IMG/VR virus record: IMGVR_UViG_3300043395_003292
Coordinates: 1-43,566 of that record
Origin: a virus
Reading direction: 5' to 3' (one strand)
Length of the DNA stretch: 43,566 nucleotides
A program made the position numbers and the translations under genes. Positions 1 to 43,566 of the stretch are shown here, piece by piece (the stretch's first letter is position 1; each line of letters starts with the position of its first letter). Under the pieces are notes generated by a model. It saw nothing but the letters and a program-made list of their open reading frames with translations. It searched no databases and was not told where the DNA came from.

Positions 1-127
1 TCTTTGCGAGCTCAAGCTCCATTTACGGCAAATGTGCGGACGGCGCGCGCGTTGAAACGATGGATCCGGTTGGTTGGCAAAAGAATCCCTATGGCGCATC
101 TAAGTACATGAACGAGGTGCAGGCCCT
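1..127. repeat. Terminal direct repeat, left copy (assembly overlap)
   Basis: Bases 1-127 are identical to 43440-43566. The repeat lies inside the epimerase coding sequence and the reading frame runs through the junction without a break. An exact 127-bp end overlap is what a k=127 de Bruijn assembler leaves on a circular or circularly permuted molecule, so I read it as an assembly signature, not a biological terminal repeat. Confidence 0.93.
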
Positions 128-632
128 CGCTTGGGCTGCGGCCTTTGGGTTAGAGGTCATAGGCCTAAGGTACTTCAATGTCTTTGGGCCCTTTCAGCGG
201 GCTGATTCTGAATACGCGGCCGTCATTCCAAAATGGATTCGGGCTGTCAGATCTGGCGAGCCTATGGTCATTCAAGGGACTGGAAAACAAAAGCGCGACT
301 TCACTTATGTGGATAACGTGGTTGATGCGAACATGCTTGCAGCCCATGCACCGAGTAGTGCCGCGAACAGCTGTTACAATATCGGTTGTGGCCAGAGCGT
401 CTCCCTCCTCGATCTTCAGCGTGAAATTACGGTTCATGCGGCGGTCAGAGGGATAAAGAGCCCATGGGTTGAGATGGTTCGCGCGCGTGAGAATGATATC
501 GCTGACGCCTATGCGGACATCAACCTTGCAAGAACCTATTTGAATTACGAGCCAAAAGTAGATTGGAAGAGGGGCATTAAGCACACATGCGAATTGCTGT
601 TGAGCGAATCAAACTTACTGATGGAAGCGTAG
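1..632 (+). CDS. UDP-N-acetylglucosamine 4-epimerase-like SDR protein, 3' part
   Basis: This is the C-terminal part of the gene that starts at 43055; joined across the circle it encodes 338 residues. It is an extended short-chain dehydrogenase/reductase that would invert C4 of a UDP-hexose or UDP-HexNAc using bound NAD. This part holds the SSSSIYG strand (Ser about 132-135) and the catalytic Y159xxxK163 in NPYGASK, then family-typical FNVFGP and RDFTYVDN segments. The C-terminal 15 or so codons overlap the start of the HNH gene at 587, and that tail looks acquired: an in-frame stop is present in the homologous sequence at 1082 but lost here. Substrate preference cannot be fixed; the SIPRS motif in the 5' part favours the WbpP-like UDP-GlcNAc branch. 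Confidence 0.88.
   Translation, partial: FASSSSIYGKCADGARVETMDPVGWQKNPYGASKYMNEVQALAWAAAFGLEVIGLRYFNVFGPFQRADSEYAAVIPKWIRAVRSGEPMVIQGTGKQKRDFTYVDNVVDANMLAAHAPSSAANSCYNIGCGQSVSLLDLQREITVHAAVRGIKSPWVEMVRARENDIADAYADINLARTYLNYEPKVDWKRGIKHTCELLLSESNLLMEA
587..602 (+). repeat. Imperfect direct repeat flanking the HNH gene, left copy
   Basis: ATGCGAATTGCTGTTG at 587-602 matches ATGCGGATAGCTGTTG at 1075-1090 in 14 of 16 bases. Both copies begin at a start codon and encode MRIAV. The two differences remove the TAG that in the right copy would end the epimerase frame. Confidence 0.75.
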
Positions 633-1084
633 TCCTTATCGACTCCGAGGATCTCGAAACGGTAAGCGGATACAAGTGGTATCTTTATAAGGCTCGTGGT
701 CGTCGATATGTTATTGCAAATACATATGTGGATGGCCGGAGGACCACAATAAAAATGCATCGCCTGATAGCAAGGGCTCCTGCTAAACTCACCGTCGACC
801 ACATTGATCGTGACACGTTAAACAATTCAAAGAGCAATCTTCGAATTTGCTCCATCAAAAACAACTGTAGGAACAGCGGATCGCGCAGGGGAGCAAAGTC
901 CAGTTTTAAAGGCGTGTATGTGCGAAGAGGTGGTTTTGAGGCCAGCATCAGAGTCAACTACCGCTCTGTCTACTTGGGTTTCTATCGAAACGAATTATCA
1001 GCAGCCCAAGCATATGACCGTGCTGCAAAAAAATATTTTCGCAACTACGCAGGCCTCAATTTTCCGGAGGCAAGATGCGGATAG
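587..1084 (+). CDS. HNH homing endonuclease with AP2 DNA-binding domain
   Basis: The 165-residue protein has an HNH nuclease core (HRLIARAP, then VDHIDRDTLNN and a second Asn further on) at about residues 60-100. An AP2-type binding domain follows (SSFKGVYVRRGG, then YLGFYRNELSAAQAYD) at about 105-162. This is the usual free-standing phage endonuclease that nicks or cuts a target and spreads its own gene. It overlaps the epimerase end by 46 bases and the dehydrogenase start by 10. Its first five residues, MRIAV, are the same as those of the dehydrogenase and are encoded by a near-identical 16-base stretch, which suggests insertion at the dehydrogenase start with duplication of the target. Confidence 0.9.
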   Translation: MRIAVERIKLTDGSVVLIDSEDLETVSGYKWYLYKARGRRYVIANTYVDGRRTTIKMHRLIARAPAKLTVDHIDRDTLNNSKSNLRICSIKNNCRNSGSRRGAKSSFKGVYVRRGGFEASIRVNYRSVYLGFYRNELSAAQAYDRAAKKYFRNYAGLNFPEARCG

Positions 1085-1090
1085 CTGTTG
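1075..1090 (+). repeat. Imperfect direct repeat flanking the HNH gene, right copy
   Basis: Right copy of the 16-base repeat. It contains the dehydrogenase start codon and the TAG (1082-1084) used as the HNH stop. Read in the epimerase frame, the same TGC GGA TAG would have ended the epimerase, so it is probably the ancestral gene junction. Confidence 0.72.
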
Positions 1091-1923
1091 TCGGAAACGG
1101 AATTGTTGGCGGAGCCTTAAGGCTTTGGTTTGAAACCCATTTGCCCGAAGTCTCAATCGGCATATGGGATCCGCCTCAAGGGAAGAAAGATCCAATCGAC
1201 GAGTCGGTTGAGGTCGCCTTCATTTCGGTTCCCGTTCCAACAAAAGGCTTTAAGCAGGACTTAACCATCCTCCACTCAGCCATTCAGGCCTCAATGCTCG
1301 CAAAGTACATTGTGATCAGATCAAGCGTCGTACCTGGCACCTGCGACACACTCTCTAGTATCTACGGCCGAGCCATCATGGCCATGCCTGAGTTTTTGAC
1401 CGAGCGAACCGCTTTCCAAGATTTCTGCAGTCAAGACGTGATCATTGGTTATCCCGATCAGTTTAAAGTGGACGCAAATTGGTGGGTTCCGTTCGTATCC
1501 ATATTCGGAAATCTCAAGCGCATTCGCTGGGCATCGGCCATGGAGTGTGAGCTTGCGAAATACGCCCATAACTCTTTTGGGGCGTTCAAGGTCACCTACT
1601 TCAATATGGTCTATCACTTATGCACTGAGCACGGCCTTGAGTTTGAACGCGTGAGAGAAATGGTGCTGGCATCTGGCTACATCAATGAAACCCACACCCT
1701 TGTCCCGGGCCCGGACGGCCGCCTCGGTTATGGCGGCAAATGCTTTCCAAAGGATCTCTCGGCCTTTATTGGTTTTGTAAACGACAACCCGGCACACGTC
1801 TTATTAAAGGATGTGCTATGCCTGAATCGCCTTTATAGAGGCCCTGATCCTGAGATTGAATTGAAAAATACCCCCACACGAGAACCAAATTTAACCAATC
1901 AGGAGGTTTCAGGTGGAGGATAA
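1075..1923 (+). CDS. Short UDP-glucose/GDP-mannose dehydrogenase family protein
   Basis: The 282-residue protein belongs to the nucleotide-sugar 6-dehydrogenase family, which oxidises a UDP-sugar to the uronic acid with two NAD. Visible motifs are the dinucleotide loop GNGIVGG (7-13), FISVPVPTK, RSSVVPGT, MPEFLTERTAFQDF, a central helix with AHNSFGAFK, and the thiol motif GGKCFPKD with catalytic Cys about 223. Usual members are about 400-450 residues; this one stops soon after the catalytic domain and lacks the C-terminal UDP-binding Rossmann domain. It has a GGAGG ribosome site just before ATG 1075. With the epimerase upstream it would supply a modified UDP-sugar. Activity without the third domain is uncertain. 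Confidence 0.85.
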   Translation: MRIAVVGNGIVGGALRLWFETHLPEVSIGIWDPPQGKKDPIDESVEVAFISVPVPTKGFKQDLTILHSAIQASMLAKYIVIRSSVVPGTCDTLSSIYGRAIMAMPEFLTERTAFQDFCSQDVIIGYPDQFKVDANWWVPFVSIFGNLKRIRWASAMECELAKYAHNSFGAFKVTYFNMVYHLCTEHGLEFERVREMVLASGYINETHTLVPGPDGRLGYGGKCFPKDLSAFIGFVNDNPAHVLLKDVLCLNRLYRGPDPEIELKNTPTREPNLTNQEVSGGG

Positions 1924-8903: not shown

Positions 8904-9422
8904 ATGTCTGCTGACGAAACCGGAGGAGCCGACAACAAGGGCGCCGTCCACGAGGCCAACAAGGCCGCGATCATCAACCCCGAAAATCTTGAAAACCTCG
9001 CACCTGAGCGCAAGGACCAGTATCTCAAGCGCATCAAGGAAGAGGACGCAATCGGAAAAGCGGCTCTCGTTAAAACCGACGAGTGGCTTGAAATTCACGG
9101 CAAAAAGGTGCTGATCCGAAAGAAGAACAAGGCGGGCTCAGTTTACTCGCAGTATTTCTTCAGCGGCAAACGCTACAAAGAGCAGTTTGAGAAGATCAAG
9201 CGCGACGGCAAGTTCACCTTCTACGATGAAGATGGAAAGCCGGTGAAAACCTTAAAACTCGGCCAACATCACGGCGTGGCTCCGGCCAAGGAAGAAAAGG
9301 AGATCGCAAGTGGCGATAATTCAGCTGTCGGACCTGCAAGCGATAATGCCGGACAACAGCCTGTCGGCGGCGAGCACAACGACGGACCTCGCCAACGCGG
9401 CAATCGCGGACGCCGAAGCTAA
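8904..9422 (+). CDS. Unknown virion-region protein (Mu gp35 position)
   Basis: The 172-residue protein starts at ATG 8904 after GGAGAAG. Residues about 25-115 are charged and could form a small domain (VLIRKKNKAGSVYSQYFFSG); the last 38 residues are Gly/Asn/Gln/Arg-rich and disordered. It holds the place of Mu gp35, between capsid and gp36, but I see no gp35 motif. The disordered tail is encoded entirely within a 113-base overlap with the next gene. Confidence 0.6.
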   Translation: MSADETGGADNKGAVHEANKAAIINPENLENLAPERKDQYLKRIKEEDAIGKAALVKTDEWLEIHGKKVLIRKKNKAGSVYSQYFFSGKRYKEQFEKIKRDGKFTFYDEDGKPVKTLKLGQHHGVAPAKEEKEIASGDNSAVGPASDNAGQQPVGGEHNDGPRQRGNRGRRS

Positions 9423-9801
9423 AGTCAGAGAAATGCTCGCGCAGCGCTACGACGTTAGCGCTGCCGAGTTCAACACCACCACATCGGTGGCCCCGGCCTT
9501 AAAGCCCATCACGAGATGGCTTGCTGCCTCTTATTTTTACCTCCACACCAGCCGCGGCGGCAAAGAGGCCATGGCTCGCTCGAAGGCCTACAAAGACATG
9601 GCCATGGAGAATATCGAGAAGCTGATCGATCGAAAGGTCGATCTTGTCGACCAGAGCGGCGCCGTGATTGACGAGCGAGCGGACGCCTACCAGGTTCTGT
9701 CAAACACGAAAGACTATATCGACACGTTTGCCGAAGACGACCCTCTTCACTGGGGAGTTGACCCTGACAAGATTGAAGACATTGAGGACGATCGCGAATA
9801 A
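9310..9801 (+). CDS. Head-tail connector, Mu gp36-like (DUF1320)
   Basis: The 163-residue protein starts at GTG 9310, with AAGGAG upstream. It is all-helical with IADAEAKVREMLAQRYDV, RWLAASYFYLHTSRGGKEAM and a C-terminal acidic tail, the usual look of DUF1320/gp36 adaptors that sit under the portal. It overlaps the upstream gene by 113 bases and abuts the gpG-like gene by one base. Confidence 0.75.
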   Translation: MAIIQLSDLQAIMPDNSLSAASTTTDLANAAIADAEAKVREMLAQRYDVSAAEFNTTTSVAPALKPITRWLAASYFYLHTSRGGKEAMARSKAYKDMAMENIEKLIDRKVDLVDQSGAVIDERADAYQVLSNTKDYIDTFAEDDPLHWGVDPDKIEDIEDDRE

Positions 9802-17391: not shown

Positions 17392-18099
17392 ATGCCGTCA
17401 AGCAATACCATTACGGCCTTTAACCAATTCACAGCCCTAACCGTGATTGAGAGCGCAAAGGTGAACGCGAACTTTGCGAACTTTAGAGGGAACATTCTGC
17501 CGGTTGATCCATCGATCGCGGCCGCCTCTGACAACTCTTATAACCTGGGTTCTGCCGATCACAGGTGGAGCAATGTTTTCTTGGGCCAAAGCTCTGTCTT
17601 CACGAGCCAGACAACAACGGCCATTTCAACCCCGACATCCGGAAGCCTCGCGCTCTTTAACAACAATGGCACGATGTCGACGAAGGATTCGAGCGGAAAC
17701 GTGCGCCCGCTCGGTGGCGCAACGTGGAAGACTTATCTCTTGAGCTTTGGCGCCCTTCAGATCGCCGGTCTCACACAAACGGGAACTCTCTTTAGTGCCG
17801 ATCCAAAAGAGATCATCCACGGGTATTTTATCAAAGCCTCGACCGCCTTTGCGGGGACATCGATTACGGCGCTGACTTTGAAGCTTGGCGTGTCGGGTTC
17901 TCTCAATAAGTATATCGACAGTTTTGATCTCGTTTCGGCGGTCACAACCACCAATTACTTCTTAAGCCAAGACTTCGATATGCCGAGCTTTAACGCCACG
18001 ACGTCGATCCAGTGGACTGCTGAGGGCGTCGGCGGAAACCTTTCAAACCTAAACGCCGGTCAGGTCACGATTAACGTGCTGACTTCGTACATGCCTTGA
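17392..18099 (+). CDS. Tail fibre-like protein 1
   Basis: The 235-residue protein begins right after the hub stop. Its first 70 residues (TITAFNQFTALTVIESAKVN, then YNLGSADHRWSNVFLG) are paralogous to the start of the protein at 20398. The LGS..HRW...(F/Y)LG motif is common in phage fibres near the attachment end. The remaining part is beta-rich (ALTLKLGVSGSLNKYI). Probably a minor receptor-side protein. Confidence 0.6.
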   Translation: MPSSNTITAFNQFTALTVIESAKVNANFANFRGNILPVDPSIAAASDNSYNLGSADHRWSNVFLGQSSVFTSQTTTAISTPTSGSLALFNNNGTMSTKDSSGNVRPLGGATWKTYLLSFGALQIAGLTQTGTLFSADPKEIIHGYFIKASTAFAGTSITALTLKLGVSGSLNKYIDSFDLVSAVTTTNYFLSQDFDMPSFNATTSIQWTAEGVGGNLSNLNAGQVTINVLTSYMP

Positions 18100-20397: not shown

Positions 20398-21534
20398 ATG
20401 CCAACTACAATAACTGCATTTAACGTTTTCACGCCAGGAACAAAAGCTCGGTCCAATGAGGTGAACGAGAATTTCAACAATTACCGCGGCGATCTCCTCC
20501 CGATCAATTCAACGACGGCTACGGCCTCGGACATGTCTCATGACCTAGGCAGTGACAGTCACCGTTGGCGTTTTGGGTACCTCGGCACTGTCGATCTAAA
20601 GTCTTCGACATCGACGGCTTCGCTTCAAATAAGCGGCGACACTTCGGCCACGGCTGGGGCCTACCTATTCAAAATCGGAGGCACGACTTGCGCTCAAATA
20701 ACCCCAACTGGCATTCCAGCTTCAAGTTTAAGGCCAAACGAGATTTTTTCAGTTCTCACATTCACAATTGCTGGCCTTGGAACGGCGACCGCGAGCTGGA
20801 CTGTTCCAGCCTGGTGCTACTTCATTAAGGCCTTTGGTTGCGGCCAGGGTGGCGCCGGCGGCGGTGGTGGCGGTATCGCCACATCTACGGCCGCACAGGC
20901 GGGCGGCGGAGGTGGTGGCCAAGGTGCGGTGCCCATGGAGGCGGGACCCTTTCCGGTCACTCCTCTTGAAGTGCTTACGATCAACATCGGACAACCCGGA
21001 ACGGGAGGGATCGGCGGGCTTGGGACGGCTGGCACGCCGCCCGGCACGATTCCGACGACAGGAACGAGAATTCTTCGCGGCTCTACGGTTCTCGTTCACT
21101 TTTCTCCCGGTTCTTTCGGCGGGGGCGGGGGCGCTGCTCTTACAGCAGGGACAGCCGGTCTCGGAGGCTCTGGCGGCTCACAGGGATTCTTCGGATCTAG
21201 ATTTTGCACCTATGGCGGCGACGGAGGCCAGGGCAACACCACATCTTCTGTTGTGCTCCTTCCTGGCGGATCAAGCCTGTACAGCGCGGCTACCACCACG
21301 GTCGCAACGGGCGGATCAGGAAATGGTGGCGCCGGCGGAAACGGTGGCTCAGGCCTTGGGCCCGGAGGATTCGGTGGAGATGGTGGAGTTGGCGCGGCCG
21401 GCTCCAATGGCTCTACGGCCACGGGTTACGGGGGCGGCGGTGGAGGCGGCGGTGGGTCTGACGCATTCGGATCTGCTGGAGGTAATGGTGGCCCAGGCGG
21501 CCCAGGTTACCTCGAGATCAGGATGATTCGTTAA
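20398..21534 (+). CDS. Glycine-rich tail adhesin
   Basis: In this 378-residue protein, the first 70 residues are paralogous to the start of the 17392 protein (TITAFNVF, NENFNNYRGDLLPI, LGSDSHRWRFGYLG). Residues about 150-370 are extraordinarily Gly-rich, in runs of GG, GGG and GGGGGG separated by short variable loops, with few charged residues. This resembles the polyglycine-II sandwiches of T-even adhesins such as S16 gp38, which display hypervariable receptor-binding loops. It has a GGGGGAG site and a short C-terminal strand (GYLEIRMIR). Confidence 0.75.
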   Translation: MPTTITAFNVFTPGTKARSNEVNENFNNYRGDLLPINSTTATASDMSHDLGSDSHRWRFGYLGTVDLKSSTSTASLQISGDTSATAGAYLFKIGGTTCAQITPTGIPASSLRPNEIFSVLTFTIAGLGTATASWTVPAWCYFIKAFGCGQGGAGGGGGGIATSTAAQAGGGGGGQGAVPMEAGPFPVTPLEVLTINIGQPGTGGIGGLGTAGTPPGTIPTTGTRILRGSTVLVHFSPGSFGGGGGAALTAGTAGLGGSGGSQGFFGSRFCTYGGDGGQGNTTSSVVLLPGGSSLYSAATTTVATGGSGNGGAGGNGGSGLGPGGFGGDGGVGAAGSNGSTATGYGGGGGGGGGSDAFGSAGGNGGPGGPGYLEIRMIR

Positions 21535-21621: not shown

Positions 21622-22590
21622 GTGTTTGAGTCGCTTAAATTCTTAATCTATCGGCTCAAGTATCGATACGGGAAGTATCTCCCTCTCACTGTTCCAGTTG
21701 ATCTAAGCCTAGAGCTCTCAAGTTCCTGCAACATGGCCTGCACCTACTGCTATCACGCCGATCCAGGCAATCTTCCTTTCAAGCGCGGATTCATGGATTT
21801 CGATCTCGCAATGGGTGTACTTAGTGAAGCGGCAAATCTCGGCGTCAATAGCGTGAAGCTCAACTATCGTGGCGAAGGCACCCTTCATCCGAAGTACCAC
21901 GAGATTGCCAGGTATGCGCGGGACTTGGCATCTGTTCATCCAAATGCTTTCATAGACCGAATTGCAAACTCGAATTTCAAGATCCACCCGCGCGTGCGCG
22001 AAGATGTTTTTAAGGGCCTCGCGTGTCTCACGAAAGTGAAGGTGTCCTATGATTCGTTCAGGAAAGAAGTCTTCGAGACCCAAAGGGCGAAAGGTGACCA
22101 CGACCTCACGACGGAAAACATCGAGCTCTTCTACAATCATCCCGAAAGAATTAAATCGGGAACAGAACTTGTCCTCCAGTGCGTCCGCACTCGTCTCAAT
22201 GATGACGAAGATTTTGAAGGGGAAGCTAAGCGTAGATGGCCTGGAGTTAGTATCTCTGTCCGCGACATGGTCCGGGGCCGAGTGGATTCTGATCTCAGTG
22301 CTTTGGAGAAGCGAAAGGTACGAGATGAGCAGCGAATTCCCTGTCAGCAAGCATTTGTTCGACTCATTGTCCATCATGACGGACGCGTTGGCCCGTGTTG
22401 CCCGAGCCTTAAAGGAGACCTCATTATTGGGGATCTCAACCGCGAGTCCGTGCTCGACGTCTTCAATTCCGAGATCGCAAGGCAGCTCCGTCGGGACTTG
22501 AAGTCTGGCAAAGCGTTCGACAAAGATCCGTGCAAAACATGCTCTTCTTTTGAATCCTATGCCGGATTCAAAGCACCCTGGGGGAGCTGA
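21622..22590 (+). CDS. Radical SAM protein with SPASM-like C-terminal cysteines
   Basis: The 322-residue protein starts at GTG 21622 with a weak ribosome site. The cluster motif is CNMACTYC (C36, C40, C43, CxxxCxxC). SAM-binding features follow, such as LNYRGEGTLHP in the usual GGEP position. The C-terminal half has a SPASM-type set: C about 239, HHDGRVGPCCPS, GDLNRESVLDVFNS and CKTC. Such proteins do radical chemistry on peptides, proteins or sugars. It opens the cargo operon that includes sugar enzymes, so modification of a glycan or peptide substrate is possible; the substrate is unknown. Confidence 0.85.
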   Translation: MFESLKFLIYRLKYRYGKYLPLTVPVDLSLELSSSCNMACTYCYHADPGNLPFKRGFMDFDLAMGVLSEAANLGVNSVKLNYRGEGTLHPKYHEIARYARDLASVHPNAFIDRIANSNFKIHPRVREDVFKGLACLTKVKVSYDSFRKEVFETQRAKGDHDLTTENIELFYNHPERIKSGTELVLQCVRTRLNDDEDFEGEAKRRWPGVSISVRDMVRGRVDSDLSALEKRKVRDEQRIPCQQAFVRLIVHHDGRVGPCCPSLKGDLIIGDLNRESVLDVFNSEIARQLRRDLKSGKAFDKDPCKTCSSFESYAGFKAPWGS

Positions 22591-22797
22591 ATGGTTCGAA
22601 ACTGGCAGGATCTGTTTATAACAGTTTACATCGTGGTTGGTGCACCAGTCCTTTACTCGTGGCTAGCCTGTCGCGCATCGCAAAACTTGATCGACACCTC
22701 TGTGTGGCACAAGTGGGCCTTCCGCGTTTTCCTGTTGAGTGTAGTTTTTTTCACGATCATCTGGATGACAAGCAAGAGGGAGATAATCTGCTCATGA
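22591..22797 (+). CDS. Small membrane protein, two transmembrane segments
   Basis: The 68-residue protein has hydrophobic stretches at about 9-25 (FITVYIVVGAPVLYSWLA) and 44-60 (FRVFLLSVVFFTIIWM). It has a good GGGGGAG site directly after the radical SAM stop, and ends overlapping the next gene as ATGA. Family not recognised; it could be a membrane anchor or a holin-like protein. Confidence 0.6.
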   Translation: MVRNWQDLFITVYIVVGAPVLYSWLACRASQNLIDTSVWHKWAFRVFLLSVVFFTIIWMTSKREIICS

Positions 22798-22970
22798 CAG
22801 CCGAATTACTTATGGCCTTGACCATGCTCTGCACGCCGGCGGCCGACGGCGCGAACACACCGTCACGGGAGTCGTGTCAGCTTGAGCTTATCAAATGTGT
22901 CCAGACCAGCAAAAAGCAAAACGGGGACACCTTGGTTGCTTGCTATATCAAACACACGGAGAATGAATGA
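22794..22970 (+). CDS. Small secreted or periplasmic protein
   Basis: The 58-residue frame starts at ATG 22794, overlapping the previous stop. A short signal-like N-terminus (AELLMALTMLCTPAADGA) is followed by a Cys-containing mature part (ESCQLELIKCVQ and VACYIKH), suggesting disulfides in the periplasm. Unknown function; it is coupled to the cytidylyltransferase-GT gene. Confidence 0.55.
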   Translation: MTAELLMALTMLCTPAADGANTPSRESCQLELIKCVQTSKKQNGDTLVACYIKHTENE

Positions 22971-24337
22971 CCGCTGGAATTATGCTTTGCTCGCGTCTCG
23001 CGAGCCGTAGAATTCCTGGTAAATCGGCAATCGAGATCGCCGGACGGTCCCTTCTCCAGCATCTTCATGATCGCCTACTCAAGGCTGAGATACCAATAAC
23101 GCTTGCGGTGCCGGCGGCGGAGTACTCGCAGTTCCTCGGAATGGTGAATCAGTGGCGCGTAAAACCGCGACTTTACGCCGGCCAAGACTCTGACCCAATG
23201 CTTCGAATGCTTGCGGCGGCCGAAGGGCAAAAGCTCGAGTACATCGTTCGCGTCACTCATGACAAAGTTTTTGTCGATGCCGAGCGCATACCTCTCGCCA
23301 TTCGAACGGCAGAGACGGGCGGGCTCGACTACTGGTACAGCTCCGGGTTTACGCCTGGCACTCAGTTCGAGGTGATATCTGTACCAGCGTTGCGTCGGGC
23401 CTGCATGCTGTTTAAGAATGTGGAGCACGTCAGTTATGCGATTAGAGCGGTCTGCAAATCGCGCCTTGATGTTTCACTGAAGCCCATTCCCGACACAAGA
23501 CTACTTGTCGATTTTCCAGAAGACATCGAGCTCATGCGAACGCTGTTTGCGATCTTGGGCCCGGACTGCACCCTCAAGCAAGTTGAGTCGTTTATGAGCA
23601 GCGAGCCCTGGGCGCGCGAGATCAATCGGATGCCGGTGGTCACAATTTACACTTGCGCTTACAACGCTGAGAAGTGGATCGACAAGTGCATGCGATCGGT
23701 TTGGGATCAGGTTGGATTTCAGAACTTCGAATACTTATTGATTGACGACGCTTCGACCGATCGCACGGCCTACCACATGGCCAAGTTTGCGGCCAAATAC
23801 CCTAACGTGAAGTACCTCCGAAATGATCGGAACATAGGGCTTGCGAGTTCGTCGAACGTGGCCCTCAGCGAAGCCCGCGGCAAATTCGTTTTGCGCCTGG
23901 ATTCCGACGACTATTTTACGGCGACAAACGCAATCCAAGAGCTCATCAAGGTTGCCGAGAGAACGAAGGCCGACGCCGTCTATCCGAGTAATTACCATGG
24001 GTCCACCGAGAAAGTGCAAAAAGGCAGCGAAGAGCATCATGTGGGCGGCGCTCTCTTTAGCACCAGGGCCCTAAATCACATTCGATTCACGGATGGGTTG
24101 AGGAATCTTGATGGCCTTGATCTCTTCGTGCGCGCGCGCGAGCAGCTCAAGATCGAATACTTGAACCGAGCCGTTTTTATGTACACCCAGCGCCCGGATT
24201 CGATGAGTAAGACTAACCTACGAGAACGGCAAGATCTCCGCAACGCCATAGTGTCGGCGATGACGGGCGGGCCACTTATAACGAGAGAAGAGGCCGACGC
24301 GTTCTTCGAAGACGTCCAGGCGGGGAAGATCCCGTGA
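22967..24337 (+). CDS. Fusion of SpsF/CMP-sugar-type cytidylyltransferase and family 2 glycosyltransferase
   Basis: In this 456-residue protein, residues about 1-215 are a cytidylyltransferase of the SpsF/NeuA/KdsB superfamily: MLCSRLASRRIPGKS nucleotide loop, RVTHDKVFVD (family RVTGDxP), pyrimidine-side FEVISVPALRRA, VEHVSYAIR and LLVDFPEDIELMRTLF. From about 222 a GT-A family 2 transferase begins: VTIYTCAYNAEKWI, LLIDDASTDRT (about 256-266), RNDRNIGLASSSN and the metal-binding LRLDSDDYF (about 308-316). One protein would therefore activate a sugar with CTP and transfer a sugar. Such a fusion is uncommon. It is coupled to both neighbours in the operon. Confidence 0.85.
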   Translation: MTAGIMLCSRLASRRIPGKSAIEIAGRSLLQHLHDRLLKAEIPITLAVPAAEYSQFLGMVNQWRVKPRLYAGQDSDPMLRMLAAAEGQKLEYIVRVTHDKVFVDAERIPLAIRTAETGGLDYWYSSGFTPGTQFEVISVPALRRACMLFKNVEHVSYAIRAVCKSRLDVSLKPIPDTRLLVDFPEDIELMRTLFAILGPDCTLKQVESFMSSEPWAREINRMPVVTIYTCAYNAEKWIDKCMRSVWDQVGFQNFEYLLIDDASTDRTAYHMAKFAAKYPNVKYLRNDRNIGLASSSNVALSEARGKFVLRLDSDDYFTATNAIQELIKVAERTKADAVYPSNYHGSTEKVQKGSEEHHVGGALFSTRALNHIRFTDGLRNLDGLDLFVRAREQLKIEYLNRAVFMYTQRPDSMSKTNLRERQDLRNAIVSAMTGGPLITREEADAFFEDVQAGKIP

Positions 24338-24708
24338 AAACCCTTGAAGTCGACGTCCTAAAGCTCTACGCCGGGCGCATCAAGAACTTGGAGAACACCA
24401 AGAAGTGGAACCTCTGGCTCACCTGGTGCCTTGAGCACGACAAGCTCGACGAGCTTGTGAAAATGCGAAAGGGAATTCAGATCGGCATGGCGACGGCTCA
24501 GCGAAAGGGTCTTGTCAGCACGCCACTTGCGGAGATGTTTTGTCGATGGACGGGCTCGATCGAGGCCACGATGCGAAAGATAATCAAGAAGCGCGATCGC
24601 CTTGCGAATGATTACGTTAAGAACAAGTTTAAATCGGCAAAGACCCTCGATGAGAAAAGAAAAAGGGACGTCGATTTCGAAATATTTTTAAGGAAGAACG
24701 GTTATTGA
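24334..24708 (+). CDS. Hypothetical basic helical protein
   Basis: The 124-residue protein starts at GTG 24334, overlapping the GT stop as GTGA. It is helical, with many Lys and Arg (MRKIIKKRDRLANDYVKN). No motif recognised. Its place between the CTP/GT fusion and the DAHPS-like gene suggests an accessory role in the same process. Confidence 0.65.
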   Translation: MKTLEVDVLKLYAGRIKNLENTKKWNLWLTWCLEHDKLDELVKMRKGIQIGMATAQRKGLVSTPLAEMFCRWTGSIEATMRKIIKKRDRLANDYVKNKFKSAKTLDEKRKRDVDFEIFLRKNGY

Positions 24709-24926
24709 AAACTGTCCTGGTCGGCCTTTGTGCCATCACCTTTATGATCGCTTGGGTAACAGCATACCTGCTTTTAGGCATCACGGAGGCCTCCGCCGAG
24801 CTGGACGTCTACTCGATGAGCATGGGTTGCATTCTGCTGATAACTTCAATCATCGCACTTCGCGTTTTGGTTTTTTTGATCGCCTGCTGCATCGAGGAAA
24901 TACGGAGTCAAAATGAGAGACCATGA
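24705..24926 (+). CDS. Small membrane protein, two transmembrane segments
   Basis: The 73-residue protein starts at TTG 24705, with AAGGA upstream and overlap of the previous stop as TTGA. Hydrophobic segments lie at about 3-24 (TVLVGLCAITFMIAWVTAYL) and 41-63 (GCILLITSIIALRVLVFLIA). Ends inside the DAHPS-like gene start. Unrecognised; could anchor the pathway at the membrane. Confidence 0.55.
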   Translation: MKTVLVGLCAITFMIAWVTAYLLLGITEASAELDVYSMSMGCILLITSIIALRVLVFLIACCIEEIRSQNERP

Positions 24927-25737
24927 ATTTGCACACCGGCGCACGTGGGGACCTGTTCCAAGGTACGATTTGGTTAAGGAGTATGTCCCTAGACACCCTC
25001 AATTCTACGTGATCGCCGGGCCCTGCTCAGTTGAGTCCACAAATCAAATTCGAACCATGGCCGAAATCGTAGCTGATCAAGGGGCGACACATCTCCGCGG
25101 CGGCGTCTTTCGCGCCGGCACCTATCCAGGGCACGCGTTCGGTCTGGTGCAGGAGGAGCTGATCGCGGCTTATGCAGAGGCCGCGCATAAGAACGGCCTT
25201 AAGTGCATAATCGAGGTGCTCGACTATTCGCCGGCGGCTCTTCACATGGTCACGAAGTATGCTGATTGCCTTCAGGTCGGATGCCGCCAGATGCAAAACT
25301 ATACGCTCCTTCGCAAAGTGGCTGAGTTTGGAAAGCCCGTTTTCTTAAAACGAAACCCGGGCGCCACAATCGACGAGTGGTTGGGTGCGGCCGAGCACAT
25401 CTTGGTTGCCGGAAAGGGTTTCGCCGATCCGATTCTGATTGAGCGTGGATCAAGCACTCATGCGACTCATGTGAGATGGGATCTCTCCTTAAGTTTGATC
25501 CCGGCGGTTAAGGCGATCACGAAGCTTCCGGTTATTTGCGATGCCTCTCACGGCACTGGTCGGCGGGATCTCGTTGAGCCGATGACTTTGGCGGGTGTCG
25601 CGGCCGGCGCCGGCGGCATCCTTGTTGAGTGCCACATGACCCCAGAGGAAAGCTTGAGCGATGCCGACCAGGCGGTGGACCCTCAGACATTCGCTCGCAT
25701 CATGCGAAAAGTTCATAAGATCAGGAACGTCCTGTGA
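24913..25737 (+). CDS. DAHP synthase family (class I-beta / KDO8P synthase-like) enzyme
   Basis: The 274-residue protein is an aldolase of the DAHP/KDO8P synthase superfamily, which condenses PEP with a sugar phosphate. Motifs in order are FYVIAGPCSVES (about 31-42), LRGGVFRAGTYP, LQVGCRQMQNYTLL, FLKRNPGATIDEWLGAAEHIL, ILIERGSS, VICDASHGTG (metal ligand region) and ECHMTPEESLSDADQAVDP. There is no N-terminal ferredoxin-like regulatory domain. In bacteria this starts the shikimate pathway. Beside a CMP-sugar-type cytidylyltransferase, an ulosonic acid product is an alternative. ATG 24913 has GGAG six bases upstream. Confidence 0.9.
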   Translation: MRDHEFAHRRTWGPVPRYDLVKEYVPRHPQFYVIAGPCSVESTNQIRTMAEIVADQGATHLRGGVFRAGTYPGHAFGLVQEELIAAYAEAAHKNGLKCIIEVLDYSPAALHMVTKYADCLQVGCRQMQNYTLLRKVAEFGKPVFLKRNPGATIDEWLGAAEHILVAGKGFADPILIERGSSTHATHVRWDLSLSLIPAVKAITKLPVICDASHGTGRRDLVEPMTLAGVAAGAGGILVECHMTPEESLSDADQAVDPQTFARIMRKVHKIRNVL

Positions 25738-25768
25738 TCAGACCCTTTCAAATTTGGAGGATTAAGAA

Positions 25769-27073
25769 ATGAGATGCGTGATCTGTAATTCGACCGACAA
25801 GTGGGAAAACGTGGACCAATTTCGCCATGCTCCTCAAGGCATGCATATCTGCACGGGATGCGGCTTTGTTTCTTACCCGTCCAAGTACAAAACGGAAGCC
25901 GAGATAAAAAAGTACTATGAAAAGGATTATCGAAACTGCCCGACAATTTCCAACGCTTTTACCGGCCAAAAAAAGCTCCACATTCACTCGGCCTTTCTTA
26001 CTGACACCTTAAAGAAGTGGCAGGCCGATGGAAAAAAATCTCCGGTTGTGTGTGATGTGGGCGCAGCCTACGGAGTTTTTTTGAATTGGATTCGCCAGCA
26101 CTTTCGCGATGCTGACCTAAATGGAACCGAATATGCGCTCGCCTATCGGCGCAACGCTTGGCATGAATACAAGATCAAACTAGGCGTCGACTTCGACAGC
26201 TCGAAAAAATACGATCTCATATCTTCCTTCAAGGTTGCGGAACACCAGCTTGACGTCGATAAGCGTCTTCGCGAATACACCGAGTGTCTAGCTCCCGATG
26301 GGGTTCTCTACATATCCGTGCCAATTTGGTTTTCAAAAATGGGAAACTTCGGCCTCGATGGCTGGGATCTAGAATATTACTACGACCCAAACCACATCAA
26401 CGTGTGGACGGAAAAGCTTTTTGTTACTCTTCTGCACAAATGTGGTTTGGAAATAATTAAGACTGATCACTGGATGTACGATTCGACTTATCTTTGCAAA
26501 CGCAACGACGAGATGATGAAAATCAAGCCGGAGTACGAACAGCCGGCGAACATCAAGCAGATCATGCGGGCGATCAAAGAGGCGTCTCTTGCTTATGAGC
26601 AGCACGACTTTGAAAACGCCGTGAACAAGTTCCCTAACTTCCCGGTAGCGTGGACGAACTATTATGAGAAAGCCCGAGCCACCGCCCACCAAACGGGACA
26701 AAGTCAGCCACCGCTTGAGTTCGTAAAAACAAAGTTCTTGGCCCCAGCCATGAAAGCCTGCCCATACTCACTCGAGATTCTTCGCATGGCGGCCGATATT
26801 CATATGCGCTACGGGGACTTTGAGGGGGCGGCGACGATTTGCCAGCAGGCGCTCGATGCCCGGCCAAATCACGCATCCTTCTTAATGACGTTGGCACATT
26901 GTTTTCGCGAAATTGGCTTAAGGGCTAAGGACCCGGCGGACAAAATTCGCATGCTGACCGAGAGCCGCGACTGCGCGAAATATTTGAAAGACGTCGATCT
27001 ATTGATGCGCAATGAGGCGGTCAGCTGGGTGTATAGGGACAACTCCGAAATTCCGACGCCTCATGAGCATTAA
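25769..27073 (+). CDS. SAM-dependent methyltransferase with zinc ribbon and C-terminal TPR
   Basis: This 434-residue protein has an N-terminal zinc ribbon with C3, C6, C28 and C31 (MRCVIC; HICTGC). A class I methyltransferase follows: VVCDVGAAYGVFLNWI SAM loop about 90-104, then LISSFKVAEHQLD and LAPDGVLYISVP. After about 285 the protein is helical with TPR-like repeats (GDFEGAATICQQALDARPNHASF). The layout is like C-methyltransferases of sugar pathways and phage sugar operons. It has GGAGG upstream and is the last cargo gene before lysis. Confidence 0.8.
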   Translation: MRCVICNSTDKWENVDQFRHAPQGMHICTGCGFVSYPSKYKTEAEIKKYYEKDYRNCPTISNAFTGQKKLHIHSAFLTDTLKKWQADGKKSPVVCDVGAAYGVFLNWIRQHFRDADLNGTEYALAYRRNAWHEYKIKLGVDFDSSKKYDLISSFKVAEHQLDVDKRLREYTECLAPDGVLYISVPIWFSKMGNFGLDGWDLEYYYDPNHINVWTEKLFVTLLHKCGLEIIKTDHWMYDSTYLCKRNDEMMKIKPEYEQPANIKQIMRAIKEASLAYEQHDFENAVNKFPNFPVAWTNYYEKARATAHQTGQSQPPLEFVKTKFLAPAMKACPYSLEILRMAADIHMRYGDFEGAATICQQALDARPNHASFLMTLAHCFREIGLRAKDPADKIRMLTESRDCAKYLKDVDLLMRNEAVSWVYRDNSEIPTPHEH

Positions 27074-27537: not shown

Positions 27538-27781
27538 CCTCTGTCGCTGTCACTCCCCTTCTCCAGTTGAATACCCAGTCGTCACTCATTACGCGATAAA
27601 GACGAAGACTAATAAGCCGGGATTTTACGGCATAAACAACGAAACCCTGTTTGAAGACTTTCAGACCCTCGACAGTCCTCAGATGGATGGAGGGCAGTGC
27701 CACAATGCGGTTGATTTTAAGAAGATCCAAGCTTGGAAGAAAGCGATCCAAGACGCGGCCCGCGCGAGGTGTGGCCAATGA
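27464..27781 (+). CDS. Putative outer-membrane spanin (Rz1-like lipoprotein)
   Basis: The 105-residue protein starts at TTG 27464, overlapping the previous gene by 74 bases in a different frame. The basic N-terminus and hydrophobic core (RISFAILTIASLCRC) look like a lipoprotein signal, but the residues before either Cys do not fit the standard lipobox. The mature part is Pro-poor. With the membrane coiled-coil protein and the endolysin it forms a plausible spanin pair; alternatively it is a secreted protein. Confidence 0.5.
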   Translation: MNKQNLLKKFFLLKRISFAILTIASLCRCHSPSPVEYPVVTHYAIKTKTNKPGFYGINNETLFEDFQTLDSPQMDGGQCHNAVDFKKIQAWKKAIQDAARARCGQ

Positions 27782-28350
27782 CAAATCGATTTCCGAATTT
27801 GGTCACGAGACTACAGGAGTGCGAGGACAAGCGGGCGAGGAGACCTGGAATTCCCTGGTCCGGGATTCTTATACACCATACTGGCGTCGGCACTAAGCAC
27901 CCTGAAGAAAATGATCTGCCGAAATGGGACCGCCTTCTTCAGGGGACATTGAACTGGCTCACTGCCAAGGACAAGGTTTACGTGTCGGCTCACTTTATCG
28001 TGAGTCGAACTGGCGTCATCCATCAACTGGTCGATCCTGAGTACGACGTCGCCTTTCACGCCGGCGAAAGTCAGTTCTGGAATCCGGTCTCAAGGAAGAT
28101 TGAGCCCGGATGCAATGACCGCTTTGTAGGGGTTGAGTTGATCGGAGACGGAAATCTAGCCGCTTATCCAGATGAGCAATATGAGGCCACTGCGAAGCTT
28201 TGCCGCTCCATTTTTGATAGGTACACGTCGATTAATCCGATATGTATCGTTGGCCACGAGAACGTGGCTCCTGGCCGAAAAGAAGATCCGGGCGCCAAAT
28301 TCGATTGGCGTCACTTCTTTCGACTAATATTTACTGAAAAGCCGCTTTAA
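27778..28350 (+). CDS. Endolysin, N-acetylmuramoyl-L-alanine amidase (amidase_2)
   Basis: The 190-residue protein starts at ATG 27778, overlapping the previous stop. It would cut the bond between muramic acid and the stem peptide in peptidoglycan. Zinc ligands are recognisable: ILIHHTG (H33/H34), GHENVAPGRKEDPG (His about 160, Asp about 169). Also seen are SAHFIVSRTGVIHQLVD and NDRFVGVELIGDG, both typical of amidase_2. There is no signal peptide or binding domain, so release needs a holin. The end overlaps a minus-strand gene tail by 20 bases. Confidence 0.9.
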   Translation: MTNRFPNLVTRLQECEDKRARRPGIPWSGILIHHTGVGTKHPEENDLPKWDRLLQGTLNWLTAKDKVYVSAHFIVSRTGVIHQLVDPEYDVAFHAGESQFWNPVSRKIEPGCNDRFVGVELIGDGNLAAYPDEQYEATAKLCRSIFDRYTSINPICIVGHENVAPGRKEDPGAKFDWRHFFRLIFTEKPL

Positions 28351-34178: not shown

Positions 34179-34361
34179 ATGGCGGAGAAGAAAATTCGAG
34201 AGCTATGGACACTCAAGGAGGTGGTGGCTTACCTGAAACTTCCGAAGTCGACTGTCCATCTTTATATCGCTCAAGGGAAAATCCCATCTTTTAAGGTTGG
34301 CCGGCATCGTCGGTTCATCCCGGAAGAGGTCGAAAAGGCTGTGAGGAAAATGCCCGCATGA
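34179..34361 (+). CDS. Excisionase-like HTH protein
   Basis: The 60-residue protein is read from ATG 34179 (AAAGGGA upstream); ATG 34152 is possible. It is a MerR/HTH_17-type fold: LWTLKEVVAYLKLPKSTVHLYIAQGKIPSFKVGRHRRF pattern with the wing, as in excisionases. It overlaps the integrase start as ATGA, which supports a recombination directionality role. Confidence 0.8.
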   Translation: MAEKKIRELWTLKEVVAYLKLPKSTVHLYIAQGKIPSFKVGRHRRFIPEEVEKAVRKMPA

Positions 34362-35446
34362 ACGCAGAGAAAGCCAAGGACTGGGTCCCGACAAAAGATC
34401 CGCGGATCAAAAAGCGCGGTGAGTTTTATTGGGCCCGGTTTCAAAAGCGAAACGTCAAGGTTGAGGAGTCACTCGGCACCCGCTCATTTGAGATCGCAAA
34501 GCGAGCCGTGGAGGAGATCGAATCAAACATCATCCTCGGCGTGAACTGGCAGAAGGAGCGCGAGCTCGTCGAAACGGCATGGCCGGAGTTCCTGGCCGAT
34601 AAGGCGTCGGGCAACAAGACCAAAATAGCCCGCGAGAAAACGCTTCGGGAGTATATTGGCTTCGGCGAGCGCTGGATTCTTCCCCATCTCGGGGGCGAGC
34701 GGCTGACCGACGTCACCGACGAGGCCTGGGAAAAGCTGGTCGAGAAGATCCGGGCCGAGCGACCCGACATGCTGTTTTTCAACCTGCGCAAGTACCTAAT
34801 GGGCTTTCTGTCCTGGGCCAAGCGCAAGGGCAAGATCCGCGAAATGCCGTACCTGTTTGATCCAGACACCAAAATGCGGGCCGCCCGCGAGGAGGCCGGC
34901 CCGGGCATTGCGTATTCTCTCGAAGAACTGGCCGCCATCCGGAAGGCCGCGGAGCCGTACCCGGAGTTCCATCTCTTCGTGTGCATTGCTCAATATATGG
35001 GCATGCGGCCGGGAGAAATCAACCAACTCAAGCTGGACCGTATCGATACAGAGGCGGGGATTATCGCCCTCAGGAAGGCCGACACAAAGACCCACGGCGC
35101 GCGGCTGGTGCCGATCCACCCCCTGGTGATGCCGGCGCTCAAGGCGCGGATCGCGAAGTCGGTCGAACTTGGCTCGCCCTACCTATTCCCGAATCGCGTG
35201 GACAAGGACCGACCGATGGACCGCACCGGTTTCAAAAAGACATGGCACGAAGTGATGCGGACCTCCGGCCTAAACGGTCGGATATACGACTTTCGCCATT
35301 CGTTCATCACCCATGCGCTGACCGCAAAGATGAACCCGGTGGTCGTGGCCGAAATGACCGGGACGAGCCTAAAGGTCATCCAGAAGCATTACCTTCATTT
35401 ACAGCCCAAAGATCTCATCAATGAAGTCGGGATGCTGTCGCTATGA
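34358..35446 (+). CDS. int: Tyrosine integrase
   Basis: The 362-residue site-specific recombinase has an N-terminal arm-binding part, a SAM-like core-binding domain (about 60-160) and a catalytic domain. Catalytic residues seen are R217 in GMRPGEINQL, R313 in YDFRHSF and nucleophile Y345 in QKHYLHL. The usual His of HxxR is Tyr 310 and the usual H/W before the nucleophile is Thr (MTGTS), both deviations. It is followed directly by the attP core matching a tRNA 3' end. Confidence 0.92.
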   Translation: MNAEKAKDWVPTKDPRIKKRGEFYWARFQKRNVKVEESLGTRSFEIAKRAVEEIESNIILGVNWQKERELVETAWPEFLADKASGNKTKIAREKTLREYIGFGERWILPHLGGERLTDVTDEAWEKLVEKIRAERPDMLFFNLRKYLMGFLSWAKRKGKIREMPYLFDPDTKMRAAREEAGPGIAYSLEELAAIRKAAEPYPEFHLFVCIAQYMGMRPGEINQLKLDRIDTEAGIIALRKADTKTHGARLVPIHPLVMPALKARIAKSVELGSPYLFPNRVDKDRPMDRTGFKKTWHEVMRTSGLNGRIYDFRHSFITHALTAKMNPVVVAEMTGTSLKVIQKHYLHLQPKDLINEVGMLSL

Positions 35447-43054: not shown

Positions 43055-43566
43055 GTGGCGAGAAAGTGTCTGGTTACCGGCTTTGCTGGCTTTATCGGTT
43101 CACACCTTTCCGATCGACTCCTCGAAGAGGGTTACACTGTCGTCGGCGTCGACAACTTCTCAACCGGCACCATTGAAAATGTGCAGCGCCTTAACAAAAA
43201 ACACGCAAATCTCCCAGCCGGCCGAATCCACTTCGTCAGAGGAGATCTCGTCGATCGCGACGTCATCTTCGAAATTTTCCGTGTTCACCCTGATATCGAA
43301 TGGGTGTTTCATCAGGCCGCCTTAGGAAGTATTCCAAGAAGTCTTAGAAATCCGCAAAACACGTTCGAGTCAAATGTCGTGGCGTTTAACAACGTACTCG
43401 GCGCGGTCCTGCAGAATCGACAAAACGTAAAGCGGTTCGTCTTTGCGAGCTCAAGCTCCATTTACGGCAAATGTGCGGACGGCGCGCGCGTTGAAACGAT
43501 GGATCCGGTTGGTTGGCAAAAGAATCCCTATGGCGCATCTAAGTACATGAACGAGGTGCAGGCCCT
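43055..43566 (+). CDS. UDP-N-acetylglucosamine 4-epimerase-like SDR protein, 5' part
   Basis: Starts at GTG 43055; runs off the window end and continues at base 128 of the left part. The NAD-binding loop is TGFAGFIG (8-15). VDNFSTG and GDLVDRDVIFEIF follow, then FHQAALGSIPRSLRNP. The SIPRS segment corresponds to the SVPRS of WbpP-type UDP-GlcNAc 4-epimerases, which favours an N-acetylated substrate. Together with the short dehydrogenase this resembles the first steps of UDP-HexNAc uronic acid synthesis. Confidence 0.88.
   Translation, partial: MARKCLVTGFAGFIGSHLSDRLLEEGYTVVGVDNFSTGTIENVQRLNKKHANLPAGRIHFVRGDLVDRDVIFEIFRVHPDIEWVFHQAALGSIPRSLRNPQNTFESNVVAFNNVLGAVLQNRQNVKRFVFASSSSIYGKCADGARVETMDPVGWQKNPYGASKYMNEVQA
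43440..43566. repeat. Terminal direct repeat, right copy
   Basis: Identical to bases 1-127; see the left copy. Confidence 0.93.

Follow-up and report, generated by a model that had tools for sequence, protein, structure and literature searches.

Ulosonic acids such as sialic acid, pseudaminic acid and 3-deoxy-D-manno-oct-2-ulosonic acid (KDO) are usually seen as cell-surface sugars. The closest worked-out cellular parallel to the locus described here is the Caulobacter flagellin system (NeuB, FlmC, FlmG), in which FlmG, a cytosolic transferase with a TPR domain that binds flagellin, transfers pseudaminic acid (PMC7591256). In mycobacteriophages, a phage glycosyltransferase is proposed to act on virion proteins (virion glycosylation, named in PMC11256854). 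The locus lies in IMG/VR virus record IMGVR_UViG_3300043395_003292, whose full 43,566 nucleotides are called the window below. On its + strand, positions 21622-27073 hold a tightly packed gene cassette that, on a reading we hold with fair confidence, makes a 3-deoxy-2-ulosonic acid, activates it with cytidine triphosphate (CTP) and attaches it, most likely to the tail fibre or another virion protein.

The cassette resembles the FlmG system in combining a synthase dependent on phosphoenolpyruvate (PEP), a cytidylyltransferase and a predicted cytosolic transferase. Unlike that system it is phage-borne, its cytidylyltransferase and family 2 glycosyltransferase (GT2) are fused, its TPR domain sits on a methyltransferase, and its synthase can be a variant with the fold of 3-deoxy-D-arabino-heptulosonate 7-phosphate synthase (DAHP synthase, DAHPS). 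The steps from nucleotide sugar to aldose (FlmA, B, H and D type) are not evident here. The mycobacteriophage case differs in that a dedicated set for ulosonic-acid-type synthesis and CTP activation is not described for it in the papers found, and the open-licence papers searched contain no report of this cassette or of a phage DAHPS-fold ulosonic acid synthase. All genes that a first-pass annotation had listed here are present, and its domain calls agree with profile matches for the radical SAM, cytidylyltransferase-GT2, DAHP_synth_1 and methyltransferase proteins. The cassette and the gene before it are as follows.

20398..21534, + strand: tail fibre-like protein (phrog_863, tail fibre assembly; PF21722, Gly-rich)
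21622..22590, + strand: radical SAM enzyme with a twitch-type auxiliary Fe-S domain, BtrN-like (PF13186, 43.6 bits; PF04055)
22591..22797, + strand: small protein with two transmembrane (TM)-like segments in a hydropathy scan
22967..24337, + strand: SpsF/KdsB-like cytidylyltransferase fused to a GT2 (PF02348, 34.5 bits; PF00535, 103 bits)
24334..24708, + strand: orf124, a conserved helical protein (AlphaFold2 model)
24705..24926, + strand: second small two-TM protein (hydropathy scan)
24913..25737, + strand: PEP aldolase of the DAHPS/KDO8PS/NeuB superfamily, DAHPS I-beta fold (DAHP_synth_1, 157 bits; cut-off 25.5)
25769..27073, + strand: Zn-ribbon, class I methyltransferase and TPR protein (PF13489, Methyltransf_23, 54.7 bits; TPR)

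Two synthase families in one position

Viral contigs were searched with alignments of the synthase, radical SAM, methyltransferase and cytidylyltransferase proteins, followed by a search with a separate tail protein from this phage. One lineage of 30 contigs, the window counted, carries the radical SAM and cytidylyltransferase-GT2 genes together and in the same order (30/30). One contig ends before the synthase position, or slot, and the slot counts use the remaining 29, all of which also hold the methyltransferase (29/29). The conserved order runs from the tail fibre (in most contigs) through the twitch radical SAM enzyme, the cytidylyltransferase/GT2 and the PEP aldolase slot to the Zn-ribbon methyltransferase-TPR protein. 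That the cassette recurs in 28 further viral contigs whose slot is uncut goes far beyond chance, and its genes are not carried independently of one another. Ten contigs were first reached by way of the synthase, and the radical SAM scan recovered most of the lineage without it. Because L189 and L190 are near-identical, independent lineages are slightly fewer than contig counts.

The slot is always filled, but not always by the same family. It holds a DAHPS-fold variant in 15 of the 29 contigs, a NeuB-family protein in 12, both in 2 and neither in none; the two-synthase contigs (L094/L216 and L143/L201) carry the NeuB-type and DAHPS-type genes in tandem within one cassette. NeuB-type slot proteins are about 225 amino acids long and pass the Pfam NeuB cut-off in all nine cases tested (39.7-74 bits vs 22.1), and those tested score below the equivalog cut-offs. 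Metal binding may differ in the slot proteins of L145, L148, L149 and L188-L190, from which the His of an HxxxxYP-like motif is absent.

On a tree built from the radical SAM, cytidylyltransferase-GT2 and methyltransferase proteins, with the synthase left out, parsimony requires three or more changes of slot type, and well-supported branches alone force at least two. L088, with a DAHPS-type slot, and L128, with a NeuB-type slot, are sisters at 100/100 support and lie close to the window; these sister cassettes differ in the slot, and therefore the two synthase types have been exchanged. No other evidence speaks as strongly as this exchange for the view that the DAHPS-like protein performs the NeuB kind of reaction, in which PEP and an aldehyde yield a 3-deoxy-2-ulosonic acid. 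The likeness to NeuB and PseI thus lies in the shared slot and in a family chemistry that uses PEP and a sugar aldehyde, whereas the window enzyme itself is DAHPS-like in sequence.

The association extends beyond this lineage. In the contigs inspected, a DAHPS-fold variant stands beside CTP_transf_3 and GT2 genes in three viral clades, which carry RAGT, VYGT/IYGT and KPCT, respectively, at a motif discussed below. Clade 2 (L100, L104, L106) clusters methyltransferase, radical SAM, cytidylyltransferase, GT2 and synthase genes, and in this marine clade the cytidylyltransferase and GT2 are unfused neighbours. In the clade 3 contigs inspected, a cytidylyltransferase gene lies 0-1 genes upstream of the synthase and a GT2-like gene lies downstream. 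L223, only distantly related to the phage, has three adjacent genes close to those for its fibres; they encode a PseF-like cytidylyltransferase, a GT2-like protein and a NeuB homologue.

The DAHPS-fold enzyme

In the type I-beta DAHPS motif LRGGAFKPRT, R and K contact PEP, and R and T contact erythrose 4-phosphate (E4P) (PMC6362186). The type II enzyme of M. tuberculosis holds the E4P phosphate through Arg135 and Ser136 (PMC7144000). The window enzyme shares with type I-beta DAHPS (1vs1, 1zco, 1rzm) a TIM barrel, metal and PEP ligands and up to 45% identity in the fold match. It differs from them in its glycan-gene context, in lacking a regulatory domain, in a score below the family cut-off and in the change from KPRT to RAGT.

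Structure prediction, a check proposed by the first-pass annotation, gave an AlphaFold2 model (predicted local distance difference test, pLDDT, 80.3) whose best PDB matches are the DAHPS structures 1vs1, the nearest, and 1zco, at a TM-score of about 0.8. KDO8P synthase (KDO8PS) and NeuB are poorer matches by score. Against the NCBIfam DAHPS model TIGR01361 the enzyme scores 249.3 bits, below the cut-off of 267.75, and clade 2 and clade 3 representatives also fall below it (234 and 235 bits). It reaches 63 bits against a KDO8PS cut-off of 314 and lacks the KANRS motif. NeuB scores 19 bits in the same comparison, and the Pfam NeuB match of 27.4 bits is not the best one, DAHP_synth_1 scoring 157.

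In the active site, the metal and PEP ligands of the window enzyme (C38, R62, R125, K146, R178, H213, E239 and D250) do not vary across 18 rows, apart from a single gap at D250. Where type I-beta DAHPS has LRGGAFKPRT, the phage enzymes have LRGGVFRAGT, with RAGT formed by R67/A68/G69/T70, so that in the window enzyme the PEP-contacting Lys of KPRT is replaced by Arg. The phosphate-anchor Arg has become Gly in 18/18 aligned rows, with metal and other PEP ligands kept. RAGT is present in 17/17 clade-1 rows, whereas cellular matches retain the Arg. The motif reads VYGT or IYGT in clade 2 (L097-L107) and KPCT in clade 3 (L110-L125). One loop that reads Arg-Asn or Arg-Phe in cellular enzymes has Arg-Trp in almost every member of the three clades. 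With the motif loops excluded, clades 1 and 2 join on a tree (98/94) and clade 3 stands separate. A scan of genome contigs with the DAHPS alignment returned at least 80 loci, nearly all of them canonical KPR[TS] DAHP synthases among the matches listed, and cellular RAGT members may exist outside that list.

The window synthase is thus probably neither a DAHP nor a KDO8P synthase. A true DAHP synthase that boosts the shikimate pathway during infection, with an unrelated glycan island as its neighbours, would fit the nearest family and fold, both DAHPS I-beta. It is nevertheless very improbable: the E4P anchor is lost in the clade-1 rows and in the two other viral clades, representatives of clades 1-3 score under the DAHPS cut-off, the slot is occupied in relatives by a NeuB-family protein, and the synthase stands beside cytidylyltransferase and GT2 genes in the contigs inspected. 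On these grounds this candidate was rejected. KDO8P synthase was rejected on its score and missing motif; synthesis of KDO 8-phosphate or a close analogue for a host-type lipopolysaccharide (LPS) would suit the shared superfamily and the relation of the cytidylyltransferase domain to KdsB, yet it is the most far-fetched of the readings considered. Clade-3 contig L118 moreover encodes, at 5606-6418, a separate bona fide KDO8P synthase that passes two family cut-offs and adjoins a cytidylyltransferase gene, and the same contig also carries a KPCT-type variant.

Since the phosphate-binding Arg is lost, the acceptor aldehyde is probably non-phosphorylated, which would explain why no phosphatase is seen. 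The earlier proposal that a PEP-derived ulosonic acid is made, activated with CTP and transferred at this locus gains support from the slot interchange between DAHPS variant and NeuB, from the two further viral clades in which the variant adjoins a cytidylyltransferase and a GT2, and from the loss of the E4P-phosphate anchor with PEP and metal ligands retained. A bolder version is tentative: anchor loss would have turned a DAHP synthase into a new PEP-aldolase subfamily that makes a new ulosonic acid for tail fibres from a non-phosphorylated aldehyde, perhaps generated by the radical SAM enzyme. Attachment would run through the fused cytidylyltransferase-GT2, and the sugar would be varied by synthase swaps with the rest of the cassette kept.

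Proposed activation, transfer and tailoring

The cytidylyltransferase domain (CTP_transf_3, PF02348) scores 34.5 bits against a cut-off of 22.6. Its profile aligns across the whole domain with its best PDB match, the cytidylyltransferase 6oew, and R95, D99 and D186 are conserved in 28/28 rows and D182 in 27/28. In family match, whole-domain alignment and conserved Asp residues it resembles SpsF, KdsB and PseF, from which it differs by its fusion to a GT2. The GT2 domain (103 bits) matches a GT-A family with a DxD motif, and D312, D314 and D315 are conserved; it also has a weak match to phrog_841, a GtrB-like GT2 of phages. Among named phages, the fusion finds GT2-domain matches and none across most of its length.

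These features suggest three steps, which together we regard as likely. The DAHPS-fold enzyme would condense PEP with the aldehyde acceptor; the cytidylyltransferase domain, judging by family and linkage, would convert the free ulosonic acid to its cytidine monophosphate (CMP) form; and the GT2, given its fusion here and the unfused neighbours in clade 2, would transfer the sugar directly in the cytosol.

Tailoring might form a fourth step, in which the radical SAM enzyme would oxidise or otherwise modify the acceptor or the product and the Zn-ribbon methyltransferase would methylate it. The radical SAM protein has CxxxCxxC at 36/40/43 plus C241, C259, C304 and C307, all invariant in 28 rows, and the latter four, the auxiliary-cluster Cys, align with the twitch domain of BtrN at identical spacing (18/45/3). 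Overall similarity to BtrN is low, and the phage cassette setting differs. The oxidation of an aminocyclitol by BtrN (PMC9012708) makes it reasonable to guess that the phage enzyme oxidises or tailors a sugar. SPASM/twitch enzymes also include many peptide maturases, and the gene directly follows the fibre gene, so the enzyme might instead modify a protein such as the fibre by itself, with the sugar genes serving another target. This is improbable, as the nearest solved twitch domain is that of BtrN with its aminocyclitol substrate, no precursor-peptide-like gene was recognised, and the enzyme occurs jointly with the cytidylyltransferase-GT2 in 30/30 core-lineage contigs. Comparison of the radical SAM protein with named phages gave one weak match.

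The methyltransferase conserves its Zn-ribbon Cys residues (C3, C6, C28, C31) and has no match in named phages and none in plasmids. orf124 adjoins the synthase slot in every core-lineage contig. Its AlphaFold2 model (pLDDT 92.5) has four main helices, and it has no Pfam, PDB-sequence or PDB fold match and 0 matches across 398 Pseudomonadota genomes (a scan run without a positive control). Since L096 and clade 2 do without it, the chemistry probably does not depend on it.

Proposed target, genome context and implications

Among possible acceptors we favour a virion protein encoded in the same late gene block, either the tail fibre of the phage or another one. The cassette is flanked by the tail-fibre-like gene and an amidase endolysin gene (27733-28350), all on the + strand. 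The fibre-like protein has a conserved N-terminal module and a Gly-rich C-terminus, and in most related contigs the gene immediately before the radical SAM gene encodes this module. Hydropathy scans detected no TM-like segments in the radical SAM enzyme, the methyltransferase or the cytidylyltransferase-GT2, and the cassette was not seen to encode a flippase, a polymerase, or a membrane or polyprenyl-linked glycosyltransferase. The position between fibre and lysis genes, the apparently cytosolic enzymes, the lack of a flippase or other export parts and the TPR domain favour a virion target. That it is a virion protein, most likely the fibre at 20398..21534, and not host LPS is a claim to which we give even odds. 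The fibre-like protein at 20398-21534 shares its N-terminal module with another tail-fibre-like protein, encoded before it at 17392-18099. Among relatives, only some have a Gly-rich C-terminus in the counterpart of the 20398-21534 protein, and this holds for both slot types.

The same CMP-ulosonic chemistry might decorate the host surface glycan (LPS or capsule), to exclude superinfecting phages or to convert the serotype. In keeping with this, the phage is temperate, with an integrase gene at 34358-35446, small two-TM proteins are encoded in the cassette, and the GT2 domain weakly matches GtrB-like phrog_841. We nevertheless judge a host-glycan target unlikely: the main enzymes have no TM-like segment, the export parts named above are missing, and the fibre-to-lysis position suggests late lytic expression. 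The small TM proteins, moreover, may be lysis parts and not glycan parts, since an endolysin gene lies inside the L096 cassette and an amidase gene follows the cassette here. GtrABC-type serotype conversion was rejected as first choice, with no flippase and a glycosyltransferase that has no TM-like segment. The endolysin in L096 is of the GH108 family and is encoded at 9183-9671 within the sugar cassette.

The first-pass annotation thus holds in its core, and parts of its wider interpretation fall away. Serotype conversion as an equal option and the small membrane proteins as pathway parts find no support. The Maf-like protein was not found among the open reading frames (ORFs) tested, some small ORFs lying outside that set, and the ORF at 587-1084 beside the epimerase gene encodes an HNH endonuclease. 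The epimerase is present and complete; the dehydrogenase is present but short.

Several points weigh against an ulosonic acid pathway aimed at the virion. The case is drawn from sequence and predicted structure; its product and acceptor are putative, and the target is inferred from position only. The NeuB-type slot proteins are divergent, with no match to the C-terminal SAF domain, which also sets them apart from NeuB and PseI, and some lack the motif His, as listed above. On the three-protein tree, the two contigs that carry both synthases were entered as DAHPS. Loss of a single Arg is no proof of a non-phosphorylated acceptor, as phosphate could be bound by other residues, and no enzyme can be named with certainty as the source of the aldose. 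GT2 enzymes use uridine diphosphate (UDP)-sugars more often than CMP-sugars, and the fused GT2 might take another donor.

An exact 127-nt direct repeat at both window ends (1-127 = 43440-43566) shows that the record holds the complete genome, circularly permuted and 43,439 bp long. The candidate precursor genes and their neighbour lie around this junction.

43055..43566, + strand: NAD-dependent nucleotide-sugar epimerase, 5' part (frame open to the window end, continuing at its start)
1..632, + strand: NAD-dependent nucleotide-sugar epimerase, 3' part (PF01370, 95.6 bits; terminal repeat)
587-1084: HNH endonuclease, between the epimerase and short dehydrogenase genes
1075..1923, + strand: short UDP-sugar dehydrogenase-like protein (PF00984/PF03721)

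The epimerase gene spans the junction, from 43055 to 632, and the dehydrogenase (UDPG_MGDP_dh) has no C-terminal-domain match. The HNH endonuclease gene is perhaps a homing insertion. Homologues of the short dehydrogenase and the epimerase lie inside the L129 cassette, and one or both occur in the fetched flanks of L091, L093, L134 and L136. That these two enzymes supply the acceptor precursor may be offered as a guess.

The window also holds a tailed-phage gene set (terminase, portal, protease, capsid and tail genes), an exonuclease and a C5 DNA methyltransferase. No host was found. Terminase, protease and capsid proteins match named phages at only ~25-32% identity. The closest relative by tail protein (91% identity) is L192, contig 3300007351_000040, which stops short of the cassette region. 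An Rfam search of the window gave no matches. Promoter and terminator scans found sites no commoner than in shuffles, which leaves the operon limits of the cassette putative.

If the proposed pathway is correct, an uncultured phage group would possess a dedicated viral route to ulosonic acids, encoded beside its receptor-binding fibre. The slot would also constitute a natural experiment in enzyme evolution, with two superfamily branches in one position and three viral DAHPS-fold clades without the phosphate anchor. An exchangeable synthase might then give phages a way to vary their tail-fibre chemistry.

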